52,062 nucleotides of DNA from a virus. Positions 4,561 through 29,784 of this stretch are shown in pieces (within the stretch, counting starts at the first letter, position 1; every line of letters starts with the position of its first letter). The position numbers and the translations under genes are program-made. The stretch lies in IMG/VR virus record IMGVR_UViG_3300033816_001108, positions 1 through 52,062 of that record. One strand, given 5' to 3'. The notes beneath the pieces were generated by a model. The model saw only the letters and a list, made by a program, of their open reading frames with translations. It had not been told where the DNA came from and did not search any database.

Positions 4561-5997
4561 TTAACTTCCAACCGTTGTTACTGATTCTGCGCTCGAAAAG
4601 TTTCTTGAACTAGAAAATTCATTTTTTAGTTCTTTCCATTTGGCTCTTAAGGCTTTTTTCTGTTCAACTTCATCTGAGGATGAAGTTTCTTCTGGCGTAT
4701 CTGCTGCTCCTGTAATCTCAAATTTACTCTGAGCAGTGTTGATCTTGGCAGGAAAAACAAGTCCATCTCTACCTGCTCGATTCTTTGCGACAAAGAGTCT
4801 ACCCCAGCCTGAAGCCTTCTCATGTGGTCGTCTAGAGACTGATATGATGAAGTCGCAAATCATAGCCTTTCCGTAAGCTTCTGACATATTTGTCATGTCG
4901 ATGATCTCGCTATTGGCTCCTTCTTTATTCGATTGCGATGCTGTCCAGATTGGAACGCCTAATTCCATTGCAAGACCTCGCAGCTCCTCATATACCAATT
5001 TCAATTCGTGACGAAGAGAATCAAACTGACGAGTTGATCTCATGATGTCAGCATAATCAATGATGATAATGTCCGGTTTAAAACCTTTTAGGTCGAGACG
5101 TTCAATATGCGAACGGATCGTGAAGATAGACGCTGTGTTGGTTGGATATTCCTTAATGTAAAGTCGACCGAGGTTCATGTTCTTATACTTCTCAGCAACC
5201 TCGTCTTTATGATCCATGACTTCATTAGAATCCATGTCGCAAAGGTTTGAATCGTAACGAATACCAACGGCTGTCTCAGATAGCTCAAAGGTGTAGTGCA
5301 TGACGTTTTTACCTGCACGCAGAGCATTGGCTCCAATCATTGTGAGCCAGTGAGACTTTCCGCTTCCGCTTCCTCCGACAACACACAAAAGTTCTCCCTT
5401 ACCAGAACCACCTTGCAGAATCTCTTTCTTATCAAGCTCAGGTACGCCTGTCGGAATTGTGTCACGTTTCAGACGTGTGAATCGAGCGTCCATCTCGTTA
5501 AAGAAGTCATGACCGACAGACGGAGCTGTGCCAACCTGAACGGCCTTCTTAATCGATTCGACGATCGATTCATATTTGTTTGCCTGCATCTGATCAACAG
5601 CATTTTCCAAAGCTGCTTTTAGAGCCTGCTTCCTACAAAAGTCAAGAGACTTTTCACGAACAAATTGCAGATCTCCTGGATCTGGATTGGCCTTCATCCT
5701 TTGGAGATACTCAATGATTTGATCTCGAAGGATAACGTCTGTACCAACCTTCAAATCCTCTCTAATAATGGTGACGAGCAATTGAAGGGTTGGAAAAACC
5801 TTATATTTCTTTGAATATGAAAAGTATCGATCAGCAAGGAACTGTAAGTACTTCAACTCAAAGTAAGAAGTGTCAAACACTTCCATCATCTGCTCGGCAA
5901 ATTTCGAGTCAGTCAAGAGAGCCTGCATGATCTTCTCTTGAAAAGACTTACCGTAAGATCCAAAGGTTAACTTGTTTTTATTTTCGTTTTCTAACAT
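4561..5997 (-). CDS. Replicative DNA helicase, DnaB / T4 gp41-like
   Basis: Hexameric ATP-driven helicase that unwinds DNA ahead of the fork. It is 478 residues, close to T4 gp41 and DnaB. The N-terminal helical domain (about 1-165) is followed by a RecA-fold motor. Walker A GGSGSGKS is at residues 208-215. Walker B is IIIIDYAD near 315. The YTFELSE element (about 235-242) and QSNKEG region are DnaB-like. The ATG is one base from the stop of the upstream 5' exonuclease gene, so translation is probably coupled. No separate DnaG-type primase is seen in the window. The Ser- and Glu-rich C-terminus (from about 440) looks like a flexible tail. Confidence 0.88.
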   Translation of the reverse strand: MLENENKNKLTFGSYGKSFQEKIMQALLTDSKFAEQMMEVFDTSYFELKYLQFLADRYFSYSKKYKVFPTLQLLVTIIREDLKVGTDVILRDQIIEYLQRMKANPDPGDLQFVREKSLDFCRKQALKAALENAVDQMQANKYESIVESIKKAVQVGTAPSVGHDFFNEMDARFTRLKRDTIPTGVPELDKKEILQGGSGKGELLCVVGGSGSGKSHWLTMIGANALRAGKNVMHYTFELSETAVGIRYDSNLCDMDSNEVMDHKDEVAEKYKNMNLGRLYIKEYPTNTASIFTIRSHIERLDLKGFKPDIIIIDYADIMRSTRQFDSLRHELKLVYEELRGLAMELGVPIWTASQSNKEGANSEIIDMTNMSEAYGKAMICDFIISVSRRPHEKASGWGRLFVAKNRAGRDGLVFPAKINTAQSKFEITGAADTPEETSSSDEVEQKKALRAKWKELKNEFSSSRNFSSAESVTTVGS

Positions 5998-5998
5998 T

Positions 5999-6970
5999 TT
6001 AGTTACCAGTCACGTATTTCGCGCTGTCAATACAGTTCATTGAATAAAAAAATGCCTCAACATCAAAATCGTTGATTCCTTCTTTGAGGAGGGCTTTGAT
6101 CAATCCGATCTTATTAACGTGCGGAACGAATGTATCTAACGTATGTTGCACTTTAGAAATTTGAGATGCTGACAACATACTACCATCTAGGTATACCAAT
6201 CTCCAATTTCTGTTGATCAAATCTTGATTGTCTACGACCTTCTTATAAACAGTAGATTCTCCAATCCTGGATTGACAAAACGAAATGATGTCCTCTATCA
6301 AGAGATCATCATCTGTTCCCAATATAGGAAGTTTTTTAGAAACCGTCTTAAACCCCAACCCTTTTACTCCAGGAATGTTATCTCCAGGATCTCCACATAA
6401 CGCCTTGGCGGCTGCGAAGTTGTTGGGTTTTATTCGGAATTCTTCAAAGACGTCATCAACTGTCAAGACTTTTTTCTTATGAAGAGAATAGATCGAAGTA
6501 TTTGCATCCAACAGTTGATACATGTCTTTGTCAGAAGAAACTATGATCTTTTTATTTTGCTTAAATGGCCCCGAACAAAGAAACGCAACTATGTCATCAC
6601 CCTCGCAATCAGAGGCGTAAACTTGGCAAACAGGAGAATTTTTTAGCATGTTCAATAGAGAAATAAGCTGATGTTTCCTGTTCTCTTCTGACTCAGGTAT
6701 ATCATCTCCGTAAAAACGGTTGAGCTTCTCAGGACGTCTACCAAGCTTATATTCAGGATAAATTGATCTACGTCTTAGAGAACCCCCACCTTCCCACGCT
6801 ATACAGATCATTGAAGGCTGTAACTCAGTTGTGATTCTTTTCAACGTCTTAAGAAAACCGATGCAACCTCCCATTTGATAGCCATGGGTCGACATTTGTG
6901 GGTATGCCGCCCATGACCTAATAAAAAGATTTGCTCCATCAATAACCAAGATGGGACGATCTGAACTCAT
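5999..6970 (-). CDS. 5'-3' exonuclease / RNase H of the FEN (T4 rnh-like) family
   Basis: Removes RNA primers and 5' flaps during lagging-strand synthesis. It is 323 residues (T4 RNase H has 305). The N-terminal PIN-like nuclease domain shows clustered acidic residues: VIDGAN at the start, DCEGDD in the middle and SSDKDMYQLL. These are followed by the helix-hairpin-helix DNA-binding element GDPGDNIPGVKGLGFKT around 190-207. The ATG overlaps the stop of the dUTPase C-part gene by 4 bases (ATGA), and the downstream helicase follows after one base. This position fits a T4-type replisome module. Confidence 0.86.
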   Translation of the reverse strand: MSSDRPILVIDGANLFIRSWAAYPQMSTHGYQMGGCIGFLKTLKRITTELQPSMICIAWEGGGSLRRRSIYPEYKLGRRPEKLNRFYGDDIPESEENRKHQLISLLNMLKNSPVCQVYASDCEGDDIVAFLCSGPFKQNKKIIVSSDKDMYQLLDANTSIYSLHKKKVLTVDDVFEEFRIKPNNFAAAKALCGDPGDNIPGVKGLGFKTVSKKLPILGTDDDLLIEDIISFCQSRIGESTVYKKVVDNQDLINRNWRLVYLDGSMLSASQISKVQHTLDTFVPHVNKIGLIKALLKEGINDFDVEAFFYSMNCIDSAKYVTGN

Positions 6971-7263
6971 GTTTTGCCTGTAGAACCGAATCCACCACTG
7001 CCGCGGGTCGTTGAAGACAAACTGTTGGTTGGTTGGAATATCCCACGAAAAACTCGAGAAAATACCAACTGTGCAATCCTATCGCCTTTATTGACAATAA
7101 ATTCTTCGTCACCTGTGTTCAACAAAATGACCTTAATTTCCCCTCGATAGTCACAATTGTGAACAAGAACATCATTACAAAAAAAATTGTGATTATTTTC
7201 TACTGTAAGATCATAACATCGTTCATTATGCGTTGTTTTATTTTTAATTTTTACAAACTTCAT
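6967..7263 (-). CDS. dut: Split-intein C-part fused to the C-terminal half of dUTPase
   Basis: The 98-residue product has two parts. Residues 1-36 are an intein C-fragment: CYDLTVENNHNFFCNDVLVHN is the block F/G signature, ending in His-Asn followed by a Cys as the first extein residue. Residues 37-98 are the second half of a dUTPase: DYRGEI (rest of motif III), GDRIAQLVF (motif IV) and RGSGGFGSTG (motif V). The ATG at 7263 has a strong ribosome binding site (GGAG, six bases upstream) lying inside the end of the endonuclease gene, which it overlaps by 20 bases. Alone it cannot be an active enzyme. It must join the product of 8176-8715 by protein trans-splicing. This is a regular, expressed-looking gene and shows no sign of decay. 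Confidence 0.9.
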   Translation of the reverse strand: MKFVKIKNKTTHNERCYDLTVENNHNFFCNDVLVHNCDYRGEIKVILLNTGDEEFIVNKGDRIAQLVFSRVFRGIFQPTNSLSSTTRGSGGFGSTGKT

Positions 7264-8170
7264 TTTTTTCTCCAAAAAAATTAATGATATATTTTTTCGA
7301 TTCATCAAGGCTAAAAGACAAAAAATAGCGTGCATTAATGCTAAAGGCGAACAATTCAGCAGATGAACTTTTTCTTTCTATTTTATTATCGTTGAAGCTA
7401 AATCCTTTTAGCTCTAAAATGCATTTTTTGTCATCGTTGTAGATGTAAAAATCAGGAATGTAACGTCTTGTTTTATTGTTTTCATCGATATAAGAAATTT
7501 TATACCCATGAGCTTTTGTCCATGAAAGCGATGTTGTGTCAAGAAATGTCATTAATTCAAGTTCCCAAGAAGAATCGTAAAATTCTTTTGATCCTATCTT
7601 AGTAAGATACCACCCTTTTTTGTATCTATTTGATGATCCACAACGACCTTCTAAAATAGCTTCAGAAACACCTTCACTAATCTTTTGTCTCCATTGCTCT
7701 TTTCTTTCATCCGTCCATGACAGACGAAATTTAAATTCATCAGAGACGTGTTCTTTCATAAAATCACTATGATTTTTTAGATAATCATGAGTTTCTTTTG
7801 TGCGACCTGTCAAAAGCGCAGAATTTCTTTTTCCAACCGCAGCAACACGTTCATCATCATGCTTTGTAAGTCCATCATTCCAGTTTTTATGACCGTTTGC
7901 ATATGTGTTTGATATTATTTCAGATTGTTTTTTTCGAAATGCATCCGTTCTATGAGTAACTTGACGAGATTCGCACATCTTCTTGTGATAGTCGGGATTG
8001 GACCAAACATTACGATTGTTTTTTGAGACCAACTCTTTTGCTTCAAGAGATTTTACTTCTGCATCTTTGAACCGCAGTCGATATTCTTTTGTTGATATTT
8101 TGTGAGTATTACGAAGATGCTCAACTATAGAAAACTTCTTTTCTAGATTACAAATTAGACATTTCACCAT
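7244..8170 (-). CDS. Homing endonuclease, zinc finger plus EDxHD (Vsr-like) type, inside the fractured dUTPase gene
   Basis: A 308-residue free-standing nuclease. The N-terminus has a C2H2-like finger (C4, C7, H18, H23). The middle (about 50-185) is charged, with repeated DNA-binding-like segments (WSNPDYHKKM, WTDERKEQWRQKIS). The C-terminal domain has the pattern Y-SSWELELMTFLD, then R-YIPDFYIY and CILELKGF, which fits the Vsr/EDxHD nuclease fold known from I-Bth0305I-like homing enzymes. It starts five bases after the intein N-part stop and its end overlaps the intein C-part gene. Its start codon lies in a perfect hairpin (8166-8189) and no good ribosome binding site is visible, so expression may depend on ribosomes terminating just upstream. 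The family call is from motif pattern only. Confidence 0.85.
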   Translation of the reverse strand: MVKCLICNLEKKFSIVEHLRNTHKISTKEYRLRFKDAEVKSLEAKELVSKNNRNVWSNPDYHKKMCESRQVTHRTDAFRKKQSEIISNTYANGHKNWNDGLTKHDDERVAAVGKRNSALLTGRTKETHDYLKNHSDFMKEHVSDEFKFRLSWTDERKEQWRQKISEGVSEAILEGRCGSSNRYKKGWYLTKIGSKEFYDSSWELELMTFLDTTSLSWTKAHGYKISYIDENNKTRRYIPDFYIYNDDKKCILELKGFSFNDNKIERKSSSAELFAFSINARYFLSFSLDESKKYIINFFGEKNEVCKN

Positions 8171-8189
8171 GATAATTAAGTATCATGGT
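8166..8189 (-). promoter_or_regulatory. Hairpin enclosing the endonuclease start codon
   Basis: A perfect 9-base inverted repeat (ACCATGATA / TATCATGGT) with a 6-base loop. On the minus-strand RNA the loop holds most of the TAA stop of the intein N-part gene, and the 3' arm holds the ATG of the endonuclease. It could hold down endonuclease initiation unless a ribosome finishing the upstream gene melts it. The structure is visible. The regulatory role is inference. Confidence 0.5.
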
Positions 8190-8715
8190 CAATTACAATT
8201 TCATCATCATATGATAGCTCATCAGCTCTTTTAAGCCCATCTCGAGTATAAATCATCGTTCCTGGAGTTACGCACAGTTCTGTGTCATCATCAAAAACAA
8301 ATTTGATTACATCTTTTTCACCTACATCAACAATTGCGCTTATCACATCGCTTTCGACACAAAGAGTCTGTTCATTCATAGAAAACACGACATCATTTAT
8401 CTTCAAATCAAATACTTGCTTTTTTCCAGCAGGAGTTGAAATCAAACAATTTGAAGTAAAACAATCTACTGTTCCTGGAGAATTAAGAACAGTGATACCA
8501 TATTTGGCAGCTAACCCAGATCTAGGTCTGACTTGGGCTTCAAATCCAGGAGGCAGTTCAATCTTTAACCCAGTCGCTACAGTAGCCCTTTGACCAGGTT
8601 TGATCGTCAGATACTCGTTAGCGTATAGATCACACCCTGCTGATCCTTGTGTTTGATACTTCGGAACAAGATCGTCACTGTCTACTTCACATCGAATCCA
8701 GAATATATCACTCAT
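8176..8715 (-). CDS. dut: N-terminal half of dUTPase fused to a split-intein N-part
   Basis: A 179-residue product. Residues 1-84 are dUTPase: motif I AGCDLYA, motif [21 protein letters not shown] and motif III up to GTVD. The sequence then turns into an intein N-fragment of about 95 residues starting [17 protein letters not shown] and ending at a normal TAA. Block A (Cys1) is good. Block B reads [17 protein letters not shown], so the usual His of the TxxH motif is Thr here. I chose the ATG at 8715 because AGGAGG lies eight bases upstream. The earlier ATG at 8736 would overlap uvsX more. Joined to the C-part, the extein gives a 146-residue dUTPase with GTVD-CDYRGEI restored. Confidence 0.92.
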
Positions 8716-12265: not shown

Positions 12266-13492
12266 TCAGATTTTTTCTAACTTCAACGGAAATTCAAATT
12301 CATAACCTGGAACTTTAACTGACTCGACGGATTCCACGTCTTTTATCCTGTCCTCTCTTACGTCTAGTATGAGAGCATCGTGAAGAACGAAAAGAGGCCT
12401 GATCCCGTCGTTACCCAGCGACGTCAAAATCTTGTTGAATCCTACGAGAGCCACATCGACGCCCGTGCTCTGAGCGTAATAATTGATGAAGATGTTGTCC
12501 TGCGGGCGAGAGACCTCGATCCTTCGACCATACTTGTTCGTGATGAAACCCTCACGAGAAAATTGCCTCTTTAGGTTAGAAAGCAAGGCTCGAGTGTCTA
12601 TGATCTCTCCAACTTTGCTTATGAAGCGTGATAGGTCATCGTTTGACATGCCGAGAGTCAAAGCCAGGGCATTTCTGGAAGATCCATACAGTTCAGCCAG
12701 AACAGCTGCCTTCACTACGTTCCTGGGTATGCCACCCAAACGTGTCGCTATATCCGCGTAGAGATCGGCCGCTTCGCAACCTCTGCCGGATTCATAGAGC
12801 AGAATCCTCGCTTCAAGAGATGAAAAGTCCAATGAAACCACGTATCCTCCGATCGTCGAAGGTTTCAACAACCTCCTGTTTTCTTTCTTCAGCAACAGAA
12901 TATTTGGACCTGAGGACACTGTGAGACGACCCGTCACCGTCCCAAACCTGTCATACGTGATAGGATGAGCGTATCCTCCCGCGCGGGCCTTGAATGTGGA
13001 AACGATTTGAGAATTGTGAACTGATTCGCACAAGGCTTCAACCAATGCACCATCAACCTTTGCAGGTTTTAATGATGACAGAAGAGAGGAAGCATGCATC
13101 CAAATATTCTTATAATATTCGATTGTTGTTTCATCAACCTTCTTTTTTGAAAAAGCCACGAGTGAATCTAGGTATGTCCTGTAGATCGTTGGGGGCAGAA
13201 CCATCGACCATGGAGGAATCCCTTCCTTCATCAAGGAACGAATCGACCTGACGTGTGCCTCAGGAGGTTGAGGGACCTCTGACTTGTCATGCAACATCTG
13301 CAGAGTATTCCAACAGAAAGTCGCGTCCTCACGGCGGTCTAGAGAACATCGCCAGACTTCATCAGGAATCTTTTTGATTCTCGAGTAACCATCATCCGAC
13401 ACGAGAAGGTGTTGGTTCGTTCCCAACAAGGACGATTCTAGAGCAACATCCATGCAACATATATGGTAACACGTCGATGAGCGGATTTTCAA
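12266..13492 (-). CDS. Compact family A DNA polymerase (polymerase domain only)
   Basis: 408 residues. TGRL at 187-190, motif A LDFSSLEAR with D222, motif B R257-NVV-K261 ... Y269-G and motif C LHDA with D372 identify a family A polymerase. Motif C normally reads HDE, and here the Glu is Ala. There is no 3'-5' exonuclease domain (T7 polymerase has about 700 residues and Pol I over 900), and the fingers are short. The upstream gene's TGA overlaps a TTG at 13492, used here. An ATG at 13453 would give 395 residues. Neither has a good ribosome binding site, so translational coupling to the baseplate gene upstream is likely. Proofreading would have to come from another gene. Confidence 0.78.
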   Translation of the reverse strand: MKIRSSTCYHICCMDVALESSLLGTNQHLLVSDDGYSRIKKIPDEVWRCSLDRREDATFCWNTLQMLHDKSEVPQPPEAHVRSIRSLMKEGIPPWSMVLPPTIYRTYLDSLVAFSKKKVDETTIEYYKNIWMHASSLLSSLKPAKVDGALVEALCESVHNSQIVSTFKARAGGYAHPITYDRFGTVTGRLTVSSGPNILLLKKENRRLLKPSTIGGYVVSLDFSSLEARILLYESGRGCEAADLYADIATRLGGIPRNVVKAAVLAELYGSSRNALALTLGMSNDDLSRFISKVGEIIDTRALLSNLKRQFSREGFITNKYGRRIEVSRPQDNIFINYYAQSTGVDVALVGFNKILTSLGNDGIRPLFVLHDALILDVREDRIKDVESVESVKVPGYEFEFPLKLEKI

Positions 13493-16400
13493 CCACCTGG
13501 CTTTTTCTGCGCGTTGCGGGCGGCCTGGGCATTGATCCCAGCAGTAACAGTGCTTAATTGTGTGGTCAACCCGGCGACCACCGATTGAGCTCCTTCGAAC
13601 GTTCCATATGCGTCGGCAAAGGCTAGCTTCAACTCTGTCGTGAACTTTCCAGGAGACATGTTGTGATTCAGGCTGATGACGTTGTAGAGGTTGTCAACAG
13701 TCGTACCAGTGTTTAGATCTATAAAGAATTGTTGCATGTATTCGAGTATTGGACAACCCATCGTCGTCAACGACATGGTGCCCTGCACGACTCTCATCGG
13801 CAGATCTCCAGCCCCCGAACCGTTGGGTTCCGAAGGGTTCGCCGCGTCGGAAGTGTTCCTGAGCATCATGATGGTGGACAGCAACGCGTCTTGGTTCGTG
13901 GAATAGTTCACGTTAGAGATCATTGTGCCGTTTGATCCCACATTTAGGGTGGGAACCAGGCGCGAGATCTCTCTCTTTATGACCTCAAAGCTAGGAGCCG
14001 ATTTGCCATCTTCACCACGAGGTTTTATAAATCTCGCCTTAAACTTCACGTTGGCGCCTGGGAATCGCTTGTTGATGATTGATTCAGCCTCAGTGAGCGT
14101 CTGCTGGGCGGTCAATCCTGTTTTCTGTTTTAAATCTCCAATTTCCGCTTTTGCGGCGTCGAGCTGACCAGCATTCGCCTTCATTTGAGCCGAGTTTTCA
14201 TCCGATACTACTCTGGTGCCCGTCTGCTGACCGATATCGTTCTCGACAGCGACGTATCCTAGACCGCTCGCAGCTTTCATGTAAGTCTCGGCGGTTTGAT
14301 GAGGAGTCGCCGCGCGGTCATAAATGTGGATTCTCATGATGCGCGTCTGACCTCGGGCCTTGAACCTCCCGTCAGATTCGTTGGCCGCAATCGTGTACTT
14401 TTCTAACAGATCAGTCGTGCTGTGTTGGGATCCCTTTGACAAGGTTTCAATGTAAAAATCCACCATTGGTAACAAGAATGGACCATCTGCACCCCAGTTG
14501 TCGATTGCCAATTTAGAGATGGTCGTGTTGGCTTTTTCATCCTTTGCGACTAAAGTGCCATTCGTCTTGTCGACCTTGTATTGATCGCTGAACCCATACG
14601 CGCGATTCTTCATGTCACCAAACTGAGATTCTCTAACGATCTCCATGAAAGAAGAAAACGACATTCGATCACCCTTTTGTTGCTTGACCCTTTTTGCATA
14701 AGCAGATTTCAAAGTCGGCACGTCGATCGGGAACTCAGCTATGTTCAAACCACGAGCCTTGCCTGCCCGATGATTTAATTTATAGAAAATGACCTGAAAC
14801 TCATCCACCACGTTGCCGGCCATGGCGCGGGCCAGGGCGGCGAAGTATACAGCAAAAACCTTCCCAAACGAGTTTGTACCGTAATCACCATACACCAAAG
14901 CCTCAGCGGTCTCAGAATAATCTCTTTGTCCTGGGCTGTTATTCATTATATCAAGCAGAGGATGTTTCGTGAGAGCTGGTTGATCGTTCGCAAACTTTTT
15001 TGCGTCCTGCTTTTTTGCGTCTTTCACCACGGCAAAGAAGTCTTTCGCTTTCGCAAGCTCAGAGAATCTCTCTGCGGAGGTTGCGTTAGCCTGTTTAGCA
15101 AGCTCCGTCTCCGCGTTATTTGCGGGAGAATAAAGCTTTTTTAGCAGTCCCAGAAATTCTTGCTTCGTTGCCGCGTCGCCACTCTTACTACTATTAAGAG
15201 CGTTTGTCAATCCGGCTATTTCAGCATTCAGAGTCTTTGTATCCGCAGTCGACAAGTTTCCAGAATTAACAGACGACATCAACACTGAACCACGGATGTC
15301 AGGAGCTGCGGCGTAGATGGCAGGCAAACCCAAGCGAGCTGCTAGCTCTTGTATCCTACTTATGTCGGCGGAGAGCTTCTGCTGGAACACGTCAAAGCTG
15401 TTAGAGATAGCGTCTGGACTTGAGATTATCACCTCATTGCCTCCTTGAGATGATAGAGAAAGAGTCACCGTCGCCACGCCGTTGCTGTCTATCTGTATGC
15501 TAGAGTTGATGACTCCGTACGCTTCTCTCTTTAGCATTGTTTCATTGATGAAACGAAAGTAAGGATTGTCCTGTGACGGATCGTTCGCAGGAAGCGCGGG
15601 GGCCCGCCACCCATACGTCACCCAAATCGTCGTGGACTTGTACAGCTTAGGGCTGATGAAGTCGGCTATCTCGACCAACCTAGACCTGTCGAATATTTTC
15701 AACGTCATCTTCGCCGTCTTGAACGAGAACGTTCCAACCGAAGATTGGACGTTGACAGAAAAATCTGTGATGGTTCCAAAAGGTAACATGGGATTGATGA
15801 CAGGGTGATACCTGGGACTTGCTGTCTGATCATAATCCATGTTGATCAGCGTCTGAGGCATGGTGAACATCTCCATACCCGTCACTGTCGTGAAAGCTCC
15901 TGAGGGTTTAGGATCAGGGGTCGGATTATCTATCTGTTTGAGGTAATCTGGCTCTTTTGGTGGGGATGCCTTCAATTTGTCTTGTGGAGGTAACAAATTG
16001 TACTGCAATAATTGAAAATCATATTGCTGCTTCAGCTGCGCATTTTTTCTTTTAACAAAATCTACCTTCTCTATACCGACCGAGTTAAAGAAGTTGTTCC
16101 TTGTCATCGCGTCGTAGATCATCGCGTTCGCGGTGAGAGGTTTGTTCTTGTCAGGTATCGTCGACGTGTCAGCGCCCAACAAGAACTTAAGGGGGCTCAT
16201 CGTCATCAAGGGACGATTCGTGGCCGTCGTGTTTTTATCGTTGTTCCGGTGCAACGTGAACTCAGCCGAAAGGTAAGGCACGAGCTGTGATGCGATGATG
16301 CCAGGCACGTAATTTAGAAACGTCTCGGCCTTGTCTGCGTTGCGAAGTTTCAAGTCAATATTGGGAGCGTCGACGAGGAGGTATGTCAACTCGGGATAAG

Positions 16401-16827
16401 GAATCTCAGTTGAATCACCGGCGAGCTTGGGGATCATCAAATCGAAGTTACCTTCTTTATAGGTACCGTCGTTGTCTAGGTAGGTGTATGCAGACGGTCT
16501 TCCATTTTCATTGTACCACGTTGCGATACTTTCCGCGCCGCTGTTGCCATTCTTGTCTCCAACGTTCGTCGTGTACACTCTGAAGAGCTTTGCGAGCGTT
16601 CTGCTTTTTTCTTTATCTTTTCCCGCAAGCTCTTTGAGTTTGGCAAATATCTCAGCGCCGTTGAGAACTTTATCATTATTTTGAAGCAGAATGTTACGTA
16701 AAGCTGTAAACATGTCCTCCGTGGCACCTTCGACCCCGGACAAGGACGCTTGCTTTTGTGAGCCGAGGACGTCGACTGTCTCGAAACTGCGATAAAGATC
16801 TGCGATGTTATCGAATTTAAAAGCCAT
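13489..16827 (-). CDS. Large baseplate/tail structural protein (hub or wedge candidate)
   Basis: 1112 residues. Around 360-400 a segment (TDFSVNVQSSVGTFSFKTAKMTLKIFDRSRL) followed by TIWVTYGW resembles beta-rich baseplate proteins. The C-terminal region (LNTGTTVDNLYNVISLNHNMSPGKFTTELKLAF) resembles the end of baseplate hub proteins of the gp27/gpD type. Residues 560-620 are Lys- and Ala-rich and probably helical. The position between a LysM baseplate protein and the polymerase gene supports a baseplate role. The exact equivalent in T4 is uncertain. Its TGA overlaps the polymerase start by 3 bases. Confidence 0.6.
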   Translation of the reverse strand: MAFKFDNIADLYRSFETVDVLGSQKQASLSGVEGATEDMFTALRNILLQNNDKVLNGAEIFAKLKELAGKDKEKSRTLAKLFRVYTTNVGDKNGNSGAESIATWYNENGRPSAYTYLDNDGTYKEGNFDLMIPKLAGDSTEIPYPELTYLLVDAPNIDLKLRNADKAETFLNYVPGIIASQLVPYLSAEFTLHRNNDKNTTATNRPLMTMSPLKFLLGADTSTIPDKNKPLTANAMIYDAMTRNNFFNSVGIEKVDFVKRKNAQLKQQYDFQLLQYNLLPPQDKLKASPPKEPDYLKQIDNPTPDPKPSGAFTTVTGMEMFTMPQTLINMDYDQTASPRYHPVINPMLPFGTITDFSVNVQSSVGTFSFKTAKMTLKIFDRSRLVEIADFISPKLYKSTTIWVTYGWRAPALPANDPSQDNPYFRFINETMLKREAYGVINSSIQIDSNGVATVTLSLSSQGGNEVIISSPDAISNSFDVFQQKLSADISRIQELAARLGLPAIYAAAPDIRGSVLMSSVNSGNLSTADTKTLNAEIAGLTNALNSSKSGDAATKQEFLGLLKKLYSPANNAETELAKQANATSAERFSELAKAKDFFAVVKDAKKQDAKKFANDQPALTKHPLLDIMNNSPGQRDYSETAEALVYGDYGTNSFGKVFAVYFAALARAMAGNVVDEFQVIFYKLNHRAGKARGLNIAEFPIDVPTLKSAYAKRVKQQKGDRMSFSSFMEIVRESQFGDMKNRAYGFSDQYKVDKTNGTLVAKDEKANTTISKLAIDNWGADGPFLLPMVDFYIETLSKGSQHSTTDLLEKYTIAANESDGRFKARGQTRIMRIHIYDRAATPHQTAETYMKAASGLGYVAVENDIGQQTGTRVVSDENSAQMKANAGQLDAAKAEIGDLKQKTGLTAQQTLTEAESIINKRFPGANVKFKARFIKPRGEDGKSAPSFEVIKREISRLVPTLNVGSNGTMISNVNYSTNQDALLSTIMMLRNTSDAANPSEPNGSGAGDLPMRVVQGTMSLTTMGCPILEYMQQFFIDLNTGTTVDNLYNVISLNHNMSPGKFTTELKLAFADAYGTFEGAQSVVAGLTTQLSTVTAGINAQAARNAQKKPGG

Positions 16828-17136: not shown

Positions 17137-20100
17137 TTACTTTGCCTTCTCTTTTGAATTACCCATCGCGGCGCCAACTGGATATACGGGAGCACGATTA
17201 TAACCCATATGATCGATACCAGGAGTGATGTCATGAATCGGGCTAAAGCTGATCGTGACCTTACACATCTTGGGAGCAGTTCTTCCAAGATCGACCGACC
17301 AGGTCGTTTGATTCAACCAGTCGAATTGCATTGATTCGATGAATCCAGCAAGGCCTTTGCCACCGGCGGACTCGAAAGACTTGGTGATGGCGTTGTTGTC
17401 AGGATTCATGAAGTTGGCAACAGCATCAAAACCGACACCTTTAGAATCTTCCCCAAAAATTTTTTGAGATATTTTTTTCAAGTTTTCTGGCGTCTTTTTC
17501 AAATTTGTACTACTAACAATTTTAGTTTCTATTACTTGATTTTCCACTTCCGACGCAACCAAGTATGAACCAAACACAACATTTTTTACTTTGTAAGTAC
17601 GCTTCTTTGTTGCATCAACAGCTGGAATTGTTTCACTAGAGACTGGTTCCCCTGCATCATTTGTTATTACATTTTCAACGCTGATGTATCTGTCAAGCTC
17701 TTTCTTGATGTTTTCATCTGTAATTTCTACTTCTTCGCCGACTTCGAATGTGGTCGTTGCTTCTTGATACTTTTTTTGATTCTCTGATGTTGCTGCTTTA
17801 TTTTGTAATTCTATCTTCGCTGGATTGCCGTCTGCATCTGGGAATTCCACATTTCCATCAGCCATCCCAAACAATCTAGCGAGAGAAAACCTAGAGTAGT
17901 TGGATCTAAAAAGATCTCCTAGTCTTATTCTTACTAAAGGTGAAGCTCCGACAAGCTGGCTGAACGGAGCTACAAATCTGTAGTTCTCGCCCAGAAGATC
18001 CCTACCTCTTGTGTATTGAGGATAGATCATCGTCAAAAGTTTGTTAATCTTTACCCACATTCTATCAAAGTCGTTATCGCTTGTGGACGCCACTACGAAC
18101 GACATTCCTATCCTACGTGTGGTTCCTTTGTAGATTTTCACGGGTTCAATTCTTCCGAAACCGTCGACGGAGTCATACTGCGCATTATAATCATCTGTCA
18201 ACGAATTTAAAAACGCATGGAAAGACACGATTTCATTCGTTCTGACGTCATGGAATGAAAAAGGCACATACTCAGCGTCGAGGGCATCTTCTAACTTTTT
18301 TCTAACGTCATTGGGGATTCTTGCGCCGTTTCCGCTAGCATGATACTCACGAGATACTATTTTGTTTGGATCTTCTATGCCAACGTATTCTAAAGGTAAA
18401 GCACGGCCTCCTTTGAAAGATTCCAGCTTATTGCCGTTGATAGTGTCAGCTCTCTGTAATGAATAAACGTTACTAGACACCAAATACAACGAAGGCGCAC
18501 GCTGAGAGCTCCAAGCCAATGTCGCGTTATAAGATCCACCCCCCGACAATCTACTCTTTAACACGGAAGAATGCATGATAGTATTCGGTTCTGCTGCGTC
18601 AATTGCAGCTACTGTCAAGTCATTCCCGTCAGGACCTTTCAACCCTTTTATCGCAGATTGTTTCGATCTCTCTATTAGTGTGTCTCCTAACGACGTGAAC
18701 ACGTTAAAAGAAGCGATAAACTTTGAAGATCTGATGATTCTAAGAATCCCGACGGCTGACTTTATTCCCGCAACAATGTTGGGCGATCTGATGACTCTAT
18801 CAAGCGCCTGTGCGAGGACCAATCCGAACCTGATAATTGTCCTGCAAACTCCAAGGTTGTAACCGACGGCTTGACCTTCGCCTACGAGAGAATCTAGCCC
18901 GATGCCCAAAGCTCCGAACGCAAGTTCCCCGAGACTGACATCAGCTTTGCTATATCCTAAAAAGAAAGCATTGAATCCCGCGCGTAGACAATCTATAAAT
19001 AAATTGATGGTACGTTTGAATCCGAAGATCTCGTAAACATCAAAGGGAAACAAACTAAAGGTGTTATTCGGCTCCGTGTACATGTAGGATCCTAGGACCC
19101 TTTGACCTTTACTTTCTTTCTTTGTTACTTTGCCGTACGGTCGATTCGTCGGTAAGGCAAACAATTCTAGTAGCAATCTTACGGCGATCATCATCAAGAT
19201 CATCGTGATCATTAATCCGATATTGGTGGGATCGTCAAAGGGTTCGGACACGTTGTTCATGACGCCCCACGATTGATCACCGAATGGAGCTATCTCAGTC
19301 AAAGAACGAGTCGGAAAAGATCCTTCCAGGGAATTCAACATGTCTTTCGCTTCCAAGATGACGTTGTCAACCTTGAGGATGCCGGTTTGAACGACCGAGG
19401 GCAACTGGGCTGCTATCTCTGCGATGTTACCATTAGGATCGAATTTTCCTTGTAAGTACCCTGGTATCTCTGCAGAGGCTCGTTGCGACAAGCCGGCGCC
19501 GATCTGTGCCATCTCCATCGTTGTGATAGATTTTCCGTCTGAGAGCTTCAACGTGGGATTGAATCCTGGTATCTTTGCATCTAAGCCAACATGAGGAGCG
19601 AAACGATTGTTACCTAACGATAATGTTGAACCTCTATCACCCTTGTAAGTCTTAATTGGATGATCAGCTGGCGTTTTATCAGGAGAAGGGTTTCCTTTAG
19701 AGGTTGCTAAATCGACCGTTCCTTTTCCGACGATAGGAACTATTTGTTTCGCATACTTGTCACTATTTCGACCCGTGCTGAGATTGCCGTCAATTTCTTT
19801 TAATAGGTTGTGACCGTCATACTTGCTGTCGGCTGGGCCTTTTCCTTTTTTAAAGTTGGTTACGCTAGCATCTGAAGAAGGAGGGTTTATGTTCACCCTG
19901 TCATTCACAAACCTGTCGTCGTTTTGTGAATTAGCAAGAGGAGTAGGGATTCCTTGAGTGGTGGTTGAATCTAGAGCATATGTGTTCTTATCGATCGGAA
20001 AGCTATTTCTTTGCGTCGCTGCAACAGGCAACCCGCGTAACTCATTCAATGTCAACTGATCGTGAGGTGCACCTGTATGAGAACCAGGAGTCGAAACGTC

Positions 20101-21717
20101 AGCCAAGTAGGGATGATAGTTAGCAGGAGGTGCCGTCGGATCAATCTCGGATGGAATCAGGGGTTTTGAAGGTTTTTGATCATTCTTTTTTAACGTCGTT
20201 TCTGTGTAGACGTTTAGAACTGGATCTAGCTTGGTTTTTCCTTGAGCATTCGTGGTGACGCCCTTCGTCAATAACTCATTGCCGTCCTTACCGGACTCGT
20301 TTGACTTACCTTTTTTTATCAAGTTCGCGACTGTTGGGTACGCGTCTGACATTGAATCGGTAACCTTTTCAGCATGCACAGTGGAATTGACGTTGACTGC
20401 AGGAGTGAGAGGTGCAGGATATTTCCCGTCGGCTGAAGAGATTGAGTCCAGATCGGTGATATCAGGTTTGGAGACAGGATAGGCGTTCTTTGCAGCAACA
20501 GTGTCTGCGACAGGCTTCTTCGTCAAGGCCCCGAGATCGAGCTCGTACTTGGAGGAAGTCGTAACTTCTTCACCGGGTAGTCCTGGGATTGCTTCAGATT
20601 GAAGGATCGCGTTGAAGTCCTTAGGCGGTGAAGAAGGGTCTTCACCATTCGTGAATGAGTTAACGCCAGGCACCAACCTGTTTGGTCTGACGGCTGCGTC
20701 TGTATAGTCAACAAGAGGTTTTGGACCCTTCAACACGCCACCCGCGACCTGCGCTCCTGGCAAGAAATCGTGACCGCTTGGACCTTCGGCCGAAGTTTTA
20801 CCCTTTTGAAGGCCATCTGCGGCGCCGACGTTCAACCTGACGTAATCCTCTTCATTGTAAGAGTTTTTCACGTTCGGCGCAAATGCACCTTCTCCGACGT
20901 CAACTGGTTGGCTAAGAGGTGTCGGCACGCCTTGGGTGGTGTGAGATGCTTTTATGAACTGTTTATCGGATGTGGCTACGATTTGATCGTTTTGAGCTGA
21001 GACCTCTATGACCTTCGCTTGAGCTTCTGCGAGTCCAAGTTCATACTCAGCAGAAGGGAACTTAGTGGCTTCTCCTGAAGGCATCACGAACTCTGCGTTG
21101 GATTGAAGCTTAACCTCAAATCCCGCGCTCGGATTCGACGGGTCTTCCCCACCCGTGAACTCATTCTGTGAGTCCCAACGATTGTCGGCAATCACGGCGG
21201 CAGTGTACTTGTCGACGGGCGTGTTCGGAACGAGCTGCGTTGAAGTGTTGCCGGCCGTGGCGTTACGCAAGATCTCATTGCCGTCAGGGAGTTGAGCTGC
21301 CGATCTGCCTTTCTTGATTCCTCCAGCAATGCTTGCATAATCAGGAGAAAAAGAGCTTGGCAACACCTTGTTGAATTGTGAAGAATTATCTGAGGTGCCC
21401 AGGGGCGTCGGATACCCACCCGTAGTGATGGCCGAAGGTAAGGAGGCGTCGGTCGAGGCATCGACGATGTACTTGTTAGGTTTTGTCGAAGATCCCACCT
21501 CACCCTTGGTGACCTTGCTGAGGTACGTTCCCAAGGTGATTCGAGTCTTCTTGCTGATGTCCTTGACCGTGTTGTCGACGGTCATGTTGCCGGGATCAAG
21601 GTCAGGAGGGTTCTCATTCGCCCCGGGTTGACCTGGAGCGGCTGAATCCATCGTGTAAACCTTGTTTTGATCAGCGGGATTGACGAACCCCTTATTGCCT
21701 GTCTTGATTCCGGCCAT
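17137..21717 (-). CDS. Giant repeat-containing baseplate/tail protein
   Basis: 1526 residues. Residues 80-645 hold four degenerate repeats of about 160 residues. Landmarks recur: P(T/A)PL at 103, 265, 434 and 591; KKGK/QKGK at about 135, 304, 468 and 623; GEDP at 190 and 358; and YTDAAV-like segments. A strongly hydrophobic stretch (GLMITMILMMIAVRLLLELFAL, about 831-855) is unusual for a virion protein. The C-terminal third (YKGTTRRIGMSFVVAST-DNDFDRMW, SMQFDWLNQTTWSVDLG) looks like a folded beta-rich baseplate domain. The family is not recognised. The position between the tape measure and LysM genes indicates a tail-tip or baseplate component. Confidence 0.6.
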   Translation of the reverse strand: MAGIKTGNKGFVNPADQNKVYTMDSAAPGQPGANENPPDLDPGNMTVDNTVKDISKKTRITLGTYLSKVTKGEVGSSTKPNKYIVDASTDASLPSAITTGGYPTPLGTSDNSSQFNKVLPSSFSPDYASIAGGIKKGRSAAQLPDGNEILRNATAGNTSTQLVPNTPVDKYTAAVIADNRWDSQNEFTGGEDPSNPSAGFEVKLQSNAEFVMPSGEATKFPSAEYELGLAEAQAKVIEVSAQNDQIVATSDKQFIKASHTTQGVPTPLSQPVDVGEGAFAPNVKNSYNEEDYVRLNVGAADGLQKGKTSAEGPSGHDFLPGAQVAGGVLKGPKPLVDYTDAAVRPNRLVPGVNSFTNGEDPSSPPKDFNAILQSEAIPGLPGEEVTTSSKYELDLGALTKKPVADTVAAKNAYPVSKPDITDLDSISSADGKYPAPLTPAVNVNSTVHAEKVTDSMSDAYPTVANLIKKGKSNESGKDGNELLTKGVTTNAQGKTKLDPVLNVYTETTLKKNDQKPSKPLIPSEIDPTAPPANYHPYLADVSTPGSHTGAPHDQLTLNELRGLPVAATQRNSFPIDKNTYALDSTTTQGIPTPLANSQNDDRFVNDRVNINPPSSDASVTNFKKGKGPADSKYDGHNLLKEIDGNLSTGRNSDKYAKQIVPIVGKGTVDLATSKGNPSPDKTPADHPIKTYKGDRGSTLSLGNNRFAPHVGLDAKIPGFNPTLKLSDGKSITTMEMAQIGAGLSQRASAEIPGYLQGKFDPNGNIAEIAAQLPSVVQTGILKVDNVILEAKDMLNSLEGSFPTRSLTEIAPFGDQSWGVMNNVSEPFDDPTNIGLMITMILMMIAVRLLLELFALPTNRPYGKVTKKESKGQRVLGSYMYTEPNNTFSLFPFDVYEIFGFKRTINLFIDCLRAGFNAFFLGYSKADVSLGELAFGALGIGLDSLVGEGQAVGYNLGVCRTIIRFGLVLAQALDRVIRSPNIVAGIKSAVGILRIIRSSKFIASFNVFTSLGDTLIERSKQSAIKGLKGPDGNDLTVAAIDAAEPNTIMHSSVLKSRLSGGGSYNATLAWSSQRAPSLYLVSSNVYSLQRADTINGNKLESFKGGRALPLEYVGIEDPNKIVSREYHASGNGARIPNDVRKKLEDALDAEYVPFSFHDVRTNEIVSFHAFLNSLTDDYNAQYDSVDGFGRIEPVKIYKGTTRRIGMSFVVASTSDNDFDRMWVKINKLLTMIYPQYTRGRDLLGENYRFVAPFSQLVGASPLVRIRLGDLFRSNYSRFSLARLFGMADGNVEFPDADGNPAKIELQNKAATSENQKKYQEATTTFEVGEEVEITDENIKKELDRYISVENVITNDAGEPVSSETIPAVDATKKRTYKVKNVVFGSYLVASEVENQVIETKIVSSTNLKKTPENLKKISQKIFGEDSKGVGFDAVANFMNPDNNAITKSFESAGGKGLAGFIESMQFDWLNQTTWSVDLGRTAPKMCKVTISFSPIHDITPGIDHMGYNRAPVYPVGAAMGNSKEKAK
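19783..21477 (-). repeat. Four internal protein repeats of about 160 residues
   Basis: Codons for residues about 80-645 of the giant baseplate protein. Each unit holds, in order, T-GxPTPL, a KKGK-like element, DGNELL-like, YT-A-V, a GEDPS-PP-like loop, a LQS element, a KYEL-L element and a terminal PV-K. The repeats are diverged at the DNA level and are best seen in the protein. Confidence 0.7.
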
Positions 21718-22045: not shown

Positions 22046-25000
22046 TCATTTTTCTACAACAGGCACTGTCTGCGAGATGTCATAGTTTTGCACGCCTGAT
22101 CTGACGGCCAGCTGCTCTATTCTGTGCTTAATGATGTTCGAAGACTTCGCGATTCCGTCGGCGACGTCGCCAGCCTTCATGATGATGCTTAAATCAACTG
22201 TGATGTTGATCGGTTTTGCCTCGACGGTGTACTTGGCGCCCTTGACGCCGAGGGTGTCGAGAGTTCGTCGTAATTCCACCGCAATCTTTTCCGTTTTTGC
22301 TCCCGATATTTGTTTGAGCTGCGTCTCGAAGTCTCCAAGTGCTTTACTGAGTTTTCCAAGCGATGCATCGGCAACCGCCTTTGGTAATGCATCCGCGACA
22401 GAGTTGACGACAACAGGCAAATCTTTTATCTCGCCATATCCTTTTAGCTTGAGCATCAATGCCGCAAATTCAGTTGCTGCTCCGCCTCTGATGTTTTTAT
22501 TCGCGTCTTGTATGGCTTTGTCCAAGGTGGGAATACCACTTTCAGGATTACCTAAAGATTCTATCAAAAATTTCACGTTGCTTATTCGGCCAGCTATGTA
22601 AGAAACATTTGCTTGTTCTACAGTGGGAACGCCTATCTCCCCACCGGGCATCACAGGTACATTTCCGTCGTCCTTTGACATAACATCTGAAATGCCTTCC
22701 AACGCGTCTGTCACCGTTTTTAACGATTTCAAACTCTCAGCAAAAGATGTAAGCCGTTTTACTGACCCAAGGTCTGGACCTGCGGGGATTTTACTCAACG
22801 TTTCAGATAACGCTTCTAGCGGAGATTTTTTTGAATTTTTTACTGGTGAGATAAGCCTGCGCAAAAACGCGCCTGCTATTAGCACGTTATGCATTAAACC
22901 CGTTATTCTTTCTTCGTTTGAAAGCTTTTTACCTTCCCCGGGATCAGGAATAGAAGTCGCAATTTCGTTTAATGCTTTTATAATGGTTCCAAGAGCGTCC
23001 ATCCCTCCCTTCAATGTCTCAACCTTCTTTGCTGCATCCGGGGCGAACGTTACTGAATTGATTGCATCACCAATTACTTTGAAAATTCCTGGTGCTTTAT
23101 TTTTTATGGCCTCTAACGTATCCTCTATCTTTGGGAACGTCGTCGTGATGTTATAGGTGATTGAATCAGCAATCTTTCCAACTGTTTGCTGCTTTGACTT
23201 GTTCATCAGTTGCTGATTTTCTACAACTAATTTTGGATTCGACATAGCCGAATAGAGACCCTGTATAATACCTAAGGTTGAAACTATCACTTCTGACAAA
23301 GGCTTCAAAGCATCAATCTTGGATACGTCCATGCCTGACAAGCTTGTCGAGATGGCGCCTATGGTGTCAGCCATAAAAGTTTTTAACACTCCCAACAAAG
23401 GCCCCATTTTTGCAGTAAATTGCTCGATGTACTTCGTGTAAGCTTCTGTGTTAAACTTTTCTTCTGATGTATCTGTAACAATCCCTTCAGTCTTTGTTGT
23501 TTCTTTAAAATCTTTTACGTTCTTACCTAAATTTTCCATCAGGGTCGCTGTAGCGGTCAGAACCTGTCCTATGCCTGCAGCTGATTGAGCAACTGCGTTA
23601 GCTTGCTCAGGTTTTATTTTATTAAGAGCAACTGCGGTGGCATCTATCAGCGATGACATGGAAGGTAAAACTGACTCAATGAACCCTTGCAAAATAGGAG
23701 CATTTTTCCCAAATTCATTAGCCATGTCTTGCTCATCTGATCCAAAGAGTCCAGTTGACTTGTATTTCAAAGTGAAAGATTTAATGATCCCGGTTATTTC
23801 GCCAATGACCTTGCTAACTCCTAGAAGAATGTCTGCAAAAGCCTTGACGGTCGCCGTCGGAACATTTTGTAACAGCGAAATTGTGCCTTTAATAACGTTG
23901 AGAATTCCTAATATCCCGCTTTTATCATCTTTGCCCATCAAATTAGATATGAGATTTGCAGCTCCATCAAAAGGACTCTTGTTTTCAAATTGGTTGATCG
24001 TGCTATTCACACTAGAATTTTGAGCAACCTTTAAGATTTCGCCAATAGACTTTATCATCTCAATGATTGTTTTCATGACTGAGATGAAAGGTTCTACTTT
24101 GTTTTTTAGTGTCGAAGGATCAACTGGTAGTTTATTAATTTCTACAATGACATTTTTTGTTGTCTCTATAATGCTGTTAACAATCTGTTTTATTTTATTA
24201 AATCCAGCAATAGCAAGAGGTCCAGCTGCCACGAGCGCAATTGCTCCTAATATTGCAGCCATTATCGGGATCGTCGCGATGTATAACCCTCCGACCACCA
24301 TCAACAATTTTGTTACTGATTCTACTTTGTTGGTATCTGTAATTGAGCTAGCTACGCCTATAATCACCCCAGCGGTTACGATCATTGCGGTAACGATACC
24401 ACCTATAACCAGAAGACCCAACCCCACTCCTGCTGCAAGGCCACCGCCAGTTGCTACTATGGCAGCTCCAACCGACGCTGCTACCATCGTAAGACCCGCG
24501 GCTGCTAACATCAAAACTGCGGTGGCACCTAAAATCACCAAGGCTTTTCCAATCGACCCCGGTGATACATTTTTAGCGGCTGCTGCAAGACCCAGCGTAG
24601 TAAATGCAAAGAGAAGCATAGCTCCAACAACCGCTCCTAAGACAGGCAAAGCTGCAGTCGCAACTGGTGCTGCACCAGCAGTTGGTGCTCCTATTGTAGC
24701 AGTCATCATCGTAGCCACGCCAGCCGCTACGGCGAGCACCGCGGCGGCACCAACTATTGCAACCGCCTTTATTACTTCTTCGGTCGTTACTCCCGCTGCC
24801 CTAACAGCGAAAATAACAGCGCCGACCATCGCAAGAGCAGCAAGCATGAAAACTCCCATACGAATAAAAGTATCTGTACCGATCTCAAATGGTATGGCAG
24901 CCCCCGCTGCGGATTGGGCTCCAAGAGCTTGAATTGGTCCTAAAGCGCCTTGTGACGCGGCGCTCGATGCGCTAGCTATGACAATTTGAGCGGCTAACTT

Positions 25001-28854: not shown

Positions 28855-29754
28855 TTAGCTTGACAAAAATCTATGAGATTTTTCTGTCCATATTTCAAAT
28901 ATGAAACCATTTTCGGTTGCAAATTTTTGAGCAGATTGAAATTTGGCGACATTTTTGTCATGAGTAACATGGCAATTTGGTTTAAATTCTACAATACGTT
29001 TTGTTCCGTCTTTATACTCTATTAAACAATCAATGATGTAATGTCTAATTTTTCCTTCAAATGAATATTCGATGTTGTAAGGTTCAAACGTATAAGAAAT
29101 AACATCTTCGTTTGATTCTAAATGTAGAATCGCATTTAATTCGAATAATGACCTGTAATAAACATTAGGCTTAGATGATTTCTTAGAGTTATTGAAATAT
29201 CCATGAACGCGAGTGCATTTAGTCAGCAATCCATTTTTTACTCTCTCAGCTTGCTCCAAGCTTTGACGTTCTCGATTGGTTTCTTTGCCCCAATAAGATT
29301 TCATATGCTCTGAGATTTTTTGTTTATGAGATTCTGATTTTGATTTTCCTGTTAAAGATCTGGATATTTTTTCAGATCTTTCAGGAGTATTCATCTTTTC
29401 AATGATTGATGCTATTCTTGGATCGTCCTTCGTTAATCCCTTACACCATCCTTGAATTTCACCATTTTCCCACATTTTTCTTCTGGTTGTGAGACTTTTC
29501 TTGAAGGCTTCTTTGTTGTGACCCCAATTATTGTTCACTTTCGAAGCATGACCCCATACAAACTTAGAGTATCCATTCACCAATCCGTTAAATTTTGTAT
29601 CGGAACCACACCCACATTCGCACGTTGGTTTAATTCCTTTTAGCACAACTTGAATGTATAAATCTTCGCTTGAAATATCATGTTTTTTTGAAGCATGAAT
29701 TCTAAGGGAATTGATGCTTTCAATTTGAAAGTCGCATTGGGGACATTTAAGCAT
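28855..29754 (-). CDS. Free-standing homing endonuclease, zinc finger plus EDxHD type
   Basis: 299 residues from the ATG at 29754, which has GAGG four bases upstream. The N-terminus carries a C2H2-like finger (C4, C7, H20, H25) and then a Cys-rich loop (CECGCGSDTKF). The middle is basic with repeated helices (SHKQKISEHMKSYW). The C-terminal domain has YYRSLFELNAILHLE, then RHYIIDCLIEY and RIVEFKP, the same layout as the nuclease at 7244-8170, so the two are paralogues. It interrupts no gene. It is a selfish insertion between the tail tube and hub genes. Its ribosome binding site is in a hairpin and a late-promoter-like octamer overlaps that hairpin, which suggests late-only expression. Confidence 0.82.
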   Translation of the reverse strand: MLKCPQCDFQIESINSLRIHASKKHDISSEDLYIQVVLKGIKPTCECGCGSDTKFNGLVNGYSKFVWGHASKVNNNWGHNKEAFKKSLTTRRKMWENGEIQGWCKGLTKDDPRIASIIEKMNTPERSEKISRSLTGKSKSESHKQKISEHMKSYWGKETNRERQSLEQAERVKNGLLTKCTRVHGYFNNSKKSSKPNVYYRSLFELNAILHLESNEDVISYTFEPYNIEYSFEGKIRHYIIDCLIEYKDGTKRIVEFKPNCHVTHDKNVAKFQSAQKFATENGFIFEIWTEKSHRFLSS

Positions 29755-29757
29755 AAA

Positions 29758-29784
29758 ACCTCTGCAGCTTGACGCCACAGAGGT
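29758..29784 (-). promoter_or_regulatory. Hairpin sequestering the endonuclease ribosome binding site
   Basis: On the minus strand ACCTCTG pairs with CAGAGGT, and the stem can extend inward by four more pairs (two of them G-U) to a 5-base loop GTCAA. The GAGG of the endonuclease ribosome binding site is in the 3' arm. Transcripts reading in from the tail tube gene would hide this site. Confidence 0.6.

Follow-up and report, generated by a model that had tools for sequence, protein, structure and literature searches.

A viral dUTPase gene fractured by a putative split intein without the block B histidine

The dUTPase gene of a virus recorded in IMG/VR as IMGVR_UViG_3300033816_001108 comes in two pieces. 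The stretch analysed, called the window here, is 52,062 nucleotides long, and all parts of the locus lie on its minus strand (Table 1). The upstream gene encodes dUTPase motifs I and II and the beginning of motif III, breaks off directly after the Asp of this motif, and continues as the N-terminal part of an intein (IntN) that begins with a cysteine (Cys1) and ends at a genuine stop codon. A complete gene for a free-standing endonuclease follows, its start only five nucleotides past that stop. A third gene, with its own start codon and ribosome-binding site, encodes the C-terminal part of the intein (IntC) and then the remainder of the dUTPase. The start of IntC falls within the final 20 nucleotides of the endonuclease open reading frame (ORF), and the two genes overlap in different frames. 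An earlier reading of the letters alone, the original prediction, had described each of these parts, including the break after the motif III Asp, and all of them were found where it had placed them.

Is the broken gene really a dUTPase? The Pfam dUTPase profile PF00692 scores above its cut-off on both halves, so the assignment is not due to chance. Joined, the two exteins give 146 residues and a restored motif III, as predicted. Between them, the exteins carry motifs I to V of a dUTPase of the trimeric type. The Asp just before the break is presumably the catalytic base; because the break follows it directly, neither half should work alone.

Table 1. Features of the fractured dUTPase locus (window positions)
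Feature	Position	Strand	Basis
dUTPase N-extein, 84 residues, motifs I-III to Asp of GTVD	8464..8715	-	PF00692 profile positions 5-70, E 2e-13
IntN, 95 residues, Cys1 first	8179..8463	-	profiles; AlphaFold2 model matches Hint domains
TAA, real stop of dUTPase-N/IntN gene	8176..8178	-	sequence
Free-standing endonuclease ORF, 308 codons, open throughout	7244..8170	-	sequence, Pfam, model
GGAG ribosome-binding site of IntC gene, 6 nt 5' of ATG, within endonuclease ORF	7270..7273	-	sequence
IntC, 36 residues, own ATG at 7263, block F YDLTVENNHNFFCN, block G VHN, end VLVHN	7156..7263	-	sequence, profiles
dUTPase C-extein, 62 residues: Cys+1 (CDYRGEI), rest of motif III, motifs IV and V, stop at 6967	6967..7155	-	PF00692 profile positions 67-129, E 5.9e-17
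Upstream flank, 142 nt identical to otherwise diverged contig L007; likely co-conversion tract	8464..8605	-	alignment
Downstream flank shared with L007 over about 1.2-1.3 kb, 93-100% in bins of 100 nt, mismatches from offset 337 on; end of this likely co-conversion tract approximate	5860..7155	-	alignment
Predicted RNA hairpin, IntN stop in loop, endonuclease start codon in 3' arm	8163..8192	-	-12.3 kcal/mol, z -3.0

The window belongs to a family. A search of IMG/VR with a profile of IntC and the C-extein, using patterns from the C-part only, found 61 viral contigs that carry the same intein at the same dUTPase site. Six of the 62 loci (L106, L110, L111, L112, L135 and L139) are cut by contig ends and are omitted from our counts of cassettes. 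The 56 whole ones, window included, comprise 26 distinct versions when the extein flanks are counted and 25 distinct intein pairs. All 56 are fractured; none is continuous. In the 11 fractured members of a set of 12 contigs (65-354 kb), the two halves are the whole dUTPase complement; the twelfth, which is intein-free, has one undivided dUTPase. None of the 140 pattern matches in 84,980 bacterial and archaeal genomes was confirmed as a family member, so the family is seen in viral contigs only. No intein-bearing dUTPase was recognised among the matches listed from 50,697 GenBank phage records; Campylobacter CP220 was considered and rejected, since its record annotates one dUTPase of 459 nucleotides and no intein. 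Two members of the family stand apart. L146 has a terminal Gly-Asn and Ser at +1, and L157, with a shortened endonuclease and most of the dUTPase C-extein gone, looks decayed.

What identifies the two inner parts as halves of an intein? Comparison of both with intein profiles, as the original prediction had suggested, gave a divided answer: NCBIfam intein_Cterm passes its cut-off on IntC, whereas Pfam Hint_2 on the N-part (E = 1.2e-4), Pfam Intein_splicing on the C-part (E = 7.2e-7) and NCBIfam intein_Nterm (E = 0.027) stay below theirs. For IntN, then, the family profile and the model carry more of the evidence. The family sequence profile alone finds the Ssp DnaB intein (1MI8) at E = 2.3e-10. 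The AlphaFold2 model of IntN (predicted local distance difference test score 87.6) is predicted to have the Hint fold: inteins, intein-like domains and hedgehog Hint domains fill the top 43 Foldseek rows, led by Ssp DnaB and Npu DnaE (best E = 1.3e-3). VIA-align Z scores reach 7.6, with 7.1 for gp41-1 (6RIZ) and 6.4 for NrdJ-1 (8UBS).

The residues at the ends of the intein are conserved as well. Cys1 occurs in all 25 distinct pairs, and so does the terminal Asn (HN in 24, GN in one). Over the 26 versions, position -1 is always Asp, while position +1 is Cys in 25 and Ser in one, a count to be read with the search pattern in mind, since Cys+1 and the block F motif are in part what it selects. 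In every one of the 25 pairs IntN is acidic (mean -10.2) and IntC basic (mean +3.4), as in natural split inteins that assemble by charge. Both parts are under purifying selection. The ratio of nonsynonymous to synonymous substitution rates (dN/dS) is 0.06-0.21 for IntN in 11 of 11 pairs and 0-0.17 for IntC in 10 of 11, the remaining pair being saturated; for the endonuclease it is 0.10-0.22 (7 pairs). The calculation failed or saturated in some extein comparisons as well as in that one for IntC. The locus thus combines a predicted Hint fold, a nucleophile at position 1, a terminal Asn with Cys or Ser at +1, and separate IntN and IntC frames on either side of an endonuclease gene. The predicted split intein with a free-standing endonuclease between its halves is upheld by sequence, profiles, models and the 61 related contigs.

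One hallmark of inteins is missing. The block B His helps the first step of protein splicing. According to an excerpt of PMC6333167, no other intein residue is as highly conserved; many inteins, but not all, depend on it for splicing. Block B of the window IntN reads T66-P67-G68-T69, with Thr69 (codon 8259-8257) at the usual His position. Besides inspection by eye, the placement of block B is supported by aligning a 24-sequence profile to Ssp DnaB 1MI8, which sets the residue opposite the block B His of that intein. Among the 25 distinct inteins this residue is Thr in 13, Ser in 8, Lys in 4 and His in none. The result is unselected, because the contig search used C-part patterns only. The His is retained in all five inspected inteins of other phage genes (UvsW of S16 and PM2, the helicases of CP-T1 and K391, and the terminase of Oceanotoga phage UFV02), which were picked among 25 listed of 44 records matched by one IntN.

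Block F varies with the group. It holds Asp in 21 of 25, that is, in all the Thr/Ser inteins including that of the window, and His in all four of the Lys group, the block F motif being partly selected by the search. The Lys group is one clade in the tree (99% support), so the pairing of residues B10 and F4 is one event and not repeated evidence. Another conserved residue, Asp39 (24 Asp and one Asn of 25), was tried as the compensating residue and dropped as not specific: one alignment places an Asp in UvsW inteins too. The family has the block F Asp of canonical class 1 and lacks the histidine of block B TxxH. We file it as an intein, though not as canonical class 1, because the missing His is highly conserved rather than strictly defining.

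Such a loss has precedents. A 2020 review, as excerpted, gives as the systems without the block B His the Tko CDC21-1 intein, which is reported to splice, and a degraded Arthrobacter intein (PMC7765530). In Tko CDC21-1 a Lys is said to compensate for the missing His (PMC7765530, PMC6333167, both in excerpt), and an excerpt of PMC6801210 has nothing on a missing block B histidine. Tko CDC21-1 and Arth_1007 resemble the dUTPase family in being naturally without this residue; according to the same excerpts (PMC7765530, PMC6333167) the former is archaeal and the latter a degraded pseudogene. The dUTPase inteins are split inteins of phages, and they carry Thr/Ser or Lys directly at the position of the His. 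A histidine-independent first step would be the simplest explanation for a family that keeps its other splicing residues under selection.

Does the element move? Twelve relatives, with N-exteins at 74-96% protein identity, have an empty site, and each of them has Glu at +1; among 53 intein-free dUTPases examined, one has Cys at the +1 site. The insert of the window is identical to that of the 212-kb contig L007 at 1308 of 1308 positions, and likewise to that of L104. Flanks shared with L007 adjoin it on both sides (Table 1), in backgrounds that have otherwise diverged: farther upstream, bins of 100 nucleotides are 53-91% alike (75.5% over 200-1200 nucleotides), and beyond the downstream tract they are 70-82% alike. 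Our comparison of inserts with flanks covers pairs whose inserts are at least 80% alike, and it contains a second case, L137 and L149, with inserts 99.5% alike and flanks 54.5-82.5% alike. Empty sites together with transfer alongside shared flanks are the marks of a homing element, and alignment of the window with L007 points to recent homing with co-conversion.

The complete gene between the halves encodes a predicted nuclease. At its N terminus is a C2H2-type finger (C4, C7, H18 and H23; C-x2-C...H-x4-H) that is invariant. The C-terminal domain carries the PD-(D/E)xK motif (E203, P239-D240 and E253-x-K255), invariant in 16 aligned sequences, on a fold predicted to be that of this superfamily: VIA-align matches TnsA (1T0F) at Z 9.4 over 125 residues, VRR_NUC at 8.8 and Hjc at 8.2. 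The Pfam match is TnsA-like (6.5e-4, below cut-off). Compared with the PDB, the sequence profile gave four matches, the Bax1 nuclease among them, none at E 0.05 or better. Pfam and VIA-align gave no Vsr or MTES_1575 match, with no model of the Vsr-like homing endonuclease family of Dassa 2009 in the comparison. A second TnsA-like endonuclease gene stands free near the tail genes of the window, at 28858-29778 on the minus strand (PF08722, 3.8e-12); it is akin to the enzyme of the dUTPase locus (29% over 198 columns, E 8e-6).

The fate of this gene differs from cassette to cassette. The window type is intact in 41 of 56, window included; it is frameshifted in L035 and shortened in L157. In eight cassettes of the Lys clade its place is taken by another enzyme, which has zinc ribbons and ends in a Vsr/MTES_1575-like part (L137 type: weak MTES_1575 match, E 0.0016, below cut-off). 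That ORF is open in L137, L138, L140, L141 and L149 and broken in a run of A in L115, L130 and L147, which may be sequencing error. Five further cassettes (L107-L109, L039 and L040) have lost almost all of the endonuclease and are still split. What persists is its 3' end with the IntC start, and the deletion can be traced base by base by comparing L039 and L107 with L035. Between L107 and L039, dN/dS is 0.06 for IntN and 0.00 for IntC. Since these five alleles stay split, the fracture outlives the endonuclease.

We consider it highly probable that a mobile element of the fractured-gene kind occupies this phage dUTPase, with a split intein that splices in trans through a histidine-independent first step. 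Two separate proteins, dUTPase-N-IntN and IntC-dUTPase-C, would be made. The acidic IntN and basic IntC would associate, fold into one Hint domain and splice, restoring motif III of the 146-residue dUTPase. Activation of Cys1 would fall to other residues: Thr/Ser or Lys in place of the His, and the Asp or His of block F. The putative PD-(D/E)xK endonuclease would cut intein-free dUTPase alleles of co-infecting phages, and repair would copy the 1.3-kb insert along with its flanks. Several observations weigh against this account. The block B His is absent from every distinct intein, and Asp at -1 favours N-terminal cleavage over splicing. One lineage, L157, lacks most of the C-extein. Neither the IntN nor the endonuclease model reaches E 0.001 in Foldseek, the VIA-align scores of IntN are all below 8, and the middle of the endonuclease is modelled with low confidence. 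The counts for Cys+1 and block F are biased upward by the partial selection in the search.

Might the intein instead be dead? Its halves could do no more than associate and keep the dUTPase fragments together, unligated, or the phage dUTPase could be inactive with a host enzyme substituting for it. The universal lack of the His would suit such an account, as would the broken C-extein of L157 and the Gly-Asn with Ser+1 of L146; these altered parts show that decay does happen. Yet Cys1 and the terminal Asn are kept in 25 of 25 pairs under the low IntN dN/dS given above, and alleles without an endonuclease (L107 and L039) keep both halves under purifying selection. Binding alone gives no clear reason for residues of the splicing chemistry to persist, and Tko CDC21-1 reportedly splices without the His (PMC7765530, in excerpt). 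A splicing-dead intein is unlikely in our judgement.

Two other explanations dispense with a split intein altogether. Could errors of assembly or sequencing have broken a continuous intein with an in-frame endonuclease, the possibility that the original prediction had named as fatal to it? The contig is metagenome-assembled, and the endonucleases of other loci (L035, L115) do contain frameshifts. However, the cassettes are split in 56 of 56 cases, and in 41 of those 56 the length of the insert is not a multiple of three; this excludes a sequencing error that hides a joined frame. The 1308-nucleotide insert of the window recurs base for base on five further contigs whose sample numbers all differ, and therefore is no assembly accident. 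The endonuclease and IntC genes, moreover, overlap in different frames with starts of their own. An artefact is refuted in practice, and we give it virtually no credence. Removal at the RNA level, by a group I or II intron or by programmed read-through or hopping with no protein splicing, would have some precedent, in that introns are frequent in phage nucleotide-metabolism genes (PMC3653736, in excerpt). But at gathering thresholds the window has no Rfam match, Hint parts under purifying selection are encoded at either end of the insert, and stop codons and a whole gene intervene. We reject intron and read-through alike on the Rfam result and the evidence of the cassettes, as very improbable.

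A broader claim concerns the lineage as a whole, and here we lean towards it with less assurance. A whole lineage of phage split inteins may have given up the block B His and yet splice in trans through rewired active sites, which pair Thr/Ser at B10 with a block F Asp or, in a sister clade, Lys at B10 with a block F His. It would move with two unrelated endonucleases and leave behind alleles that have no endonuclease and a gene still broken. If the family splices, the rule that the block B His starts protein splicing is broken, and the family offers natural material in which to find the replacement; it may also supply new split inteins for protein engineering. One site shows the full series: empty, invaded, with the endonuclease decayed, and with the endonuclease deleted but the gene still split. 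With such a series, one can test directly whether fractured genes are a stage on the way to permanently split genes.

How does the locus compare with known systems? Dassa et al. are said to have described in 2009 'fractured genes', in which split inteins come with a free-standing endonuclease; gp41-1, gp41-8, NrdJ-1 and IMPDH-1 stem from this metagenomic set. The dUTPase locus is like them in that a natural split intein breaks a phage gene for an enzyme of DNA metabolism and an endonuclease gene lies between the halves; its IntN model aligns to both gp41-1 and NrdJ-1. It is unlike them in its host gene, in the missing block B His, and in its endonuclease, TnsA-like PD-(D/E)xK with a zinc finger, the Lys clade having a Vsr-like enzyme at the same place. 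dUTPase and dCTP deaminase belong to one superfamily. The dCTP deaminase of cyanophage vB_AphaS-CL131 also harbours an intein, one that excises itself in E. coli; according to the excerpted report it lies inside one ORF and is not split (PMC6293099). The original prediction held that a dUTPase host may be new. Our literature search found no report of a fractured dUTPase gene, but the founding study of 2009 lay outside that search, and the novelty is not proved. So far as the literature was searched, dUTPase joins the enzymes broken by split inteins.

Other phage genes appear to be broken in a similar way. The uvsW genes of Salmonella phage S16 (L158) and Proteus phage PM2 (L159), among the best IntN matches in the GenBank phages listed, have the same order of IntN gene, overlapping endonuclease-like ORF and IntC gene; they differ from the dUTPase cassette in host gene, in endonuclease (phrog_22417), in an intact block B (TGNH) and in Asn rather than Asp in block F. 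Both are cultured phages, and their annotation treats the uvsW halves as two helicases, on either side of a hypothetical protein. In L010 and L035 the UvsX/RecA gene upstream of dUTPase is also broken, at an atypical split: the intein part in front of its C-part already includes block B (SPLH, by eye). In L010 a Vsr-like endonuclease end is found upstream. On the contig that also carries L106, L031:2008-3399 holds an atypically split intein part in frame before a DnaB-type helicase gene, and upstream of that part is a zinc-finger stretch resembling that of the window endonuclease. In Streptococcus phage GXN1 (L164), whose record is almost unannotated, intein C-terminal ends can be seen by eye before two stretches of a terminase-like gene.

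RNA structure around the endonuclease start is suggestive, and no more than that, of control of this gene. The hairpin predicted there (Table 1) recalls that of T4 I-TevI. Measured against simple shuffles, 12 of 17 loci reach z -2 or lower in the stretch 5' of the endonuclease, and five stay above -2. Covariation is weak (13 pairs in 12 sequences) and is no proof of the hairpin, since just one pair shows a compensatory change. Short conserved elements between the IntN stop and the endonuclease start can fold over the start region: one like TACTATTTATCAATAAAGATAA in 12 aligned loci (L116, L126-L129, L131, L142, L144, L148, L150, L092 and L157) and another form like CTATTTATTAATAG in L113-L115. 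The T4-type late promoter TATAAATA, looked for before the endonuclease, was not found on the minus strand of the window.

The locus, on the minus strand, sits in a run of genes for DNA metabolism, with a gp32-like single-stranded DNA-binding protein, RecA/UvsX, a 5'-3' exonuclease, a DnaB-type helicase, ribonucleotide reductase and thymidylate kinase as neighbours. The RecA gene of the window gives one RecA match and no intein match. Three very long ORFs on the minus strand, 13489-16827, 17137-21717 and 22046-27214 (1112, 1526 and 1722 residues), gave no Pfam match at E 0.001. The gene for a family A DNA polymerase, at 12266-13492 on the minus strand, has just 408 codons.

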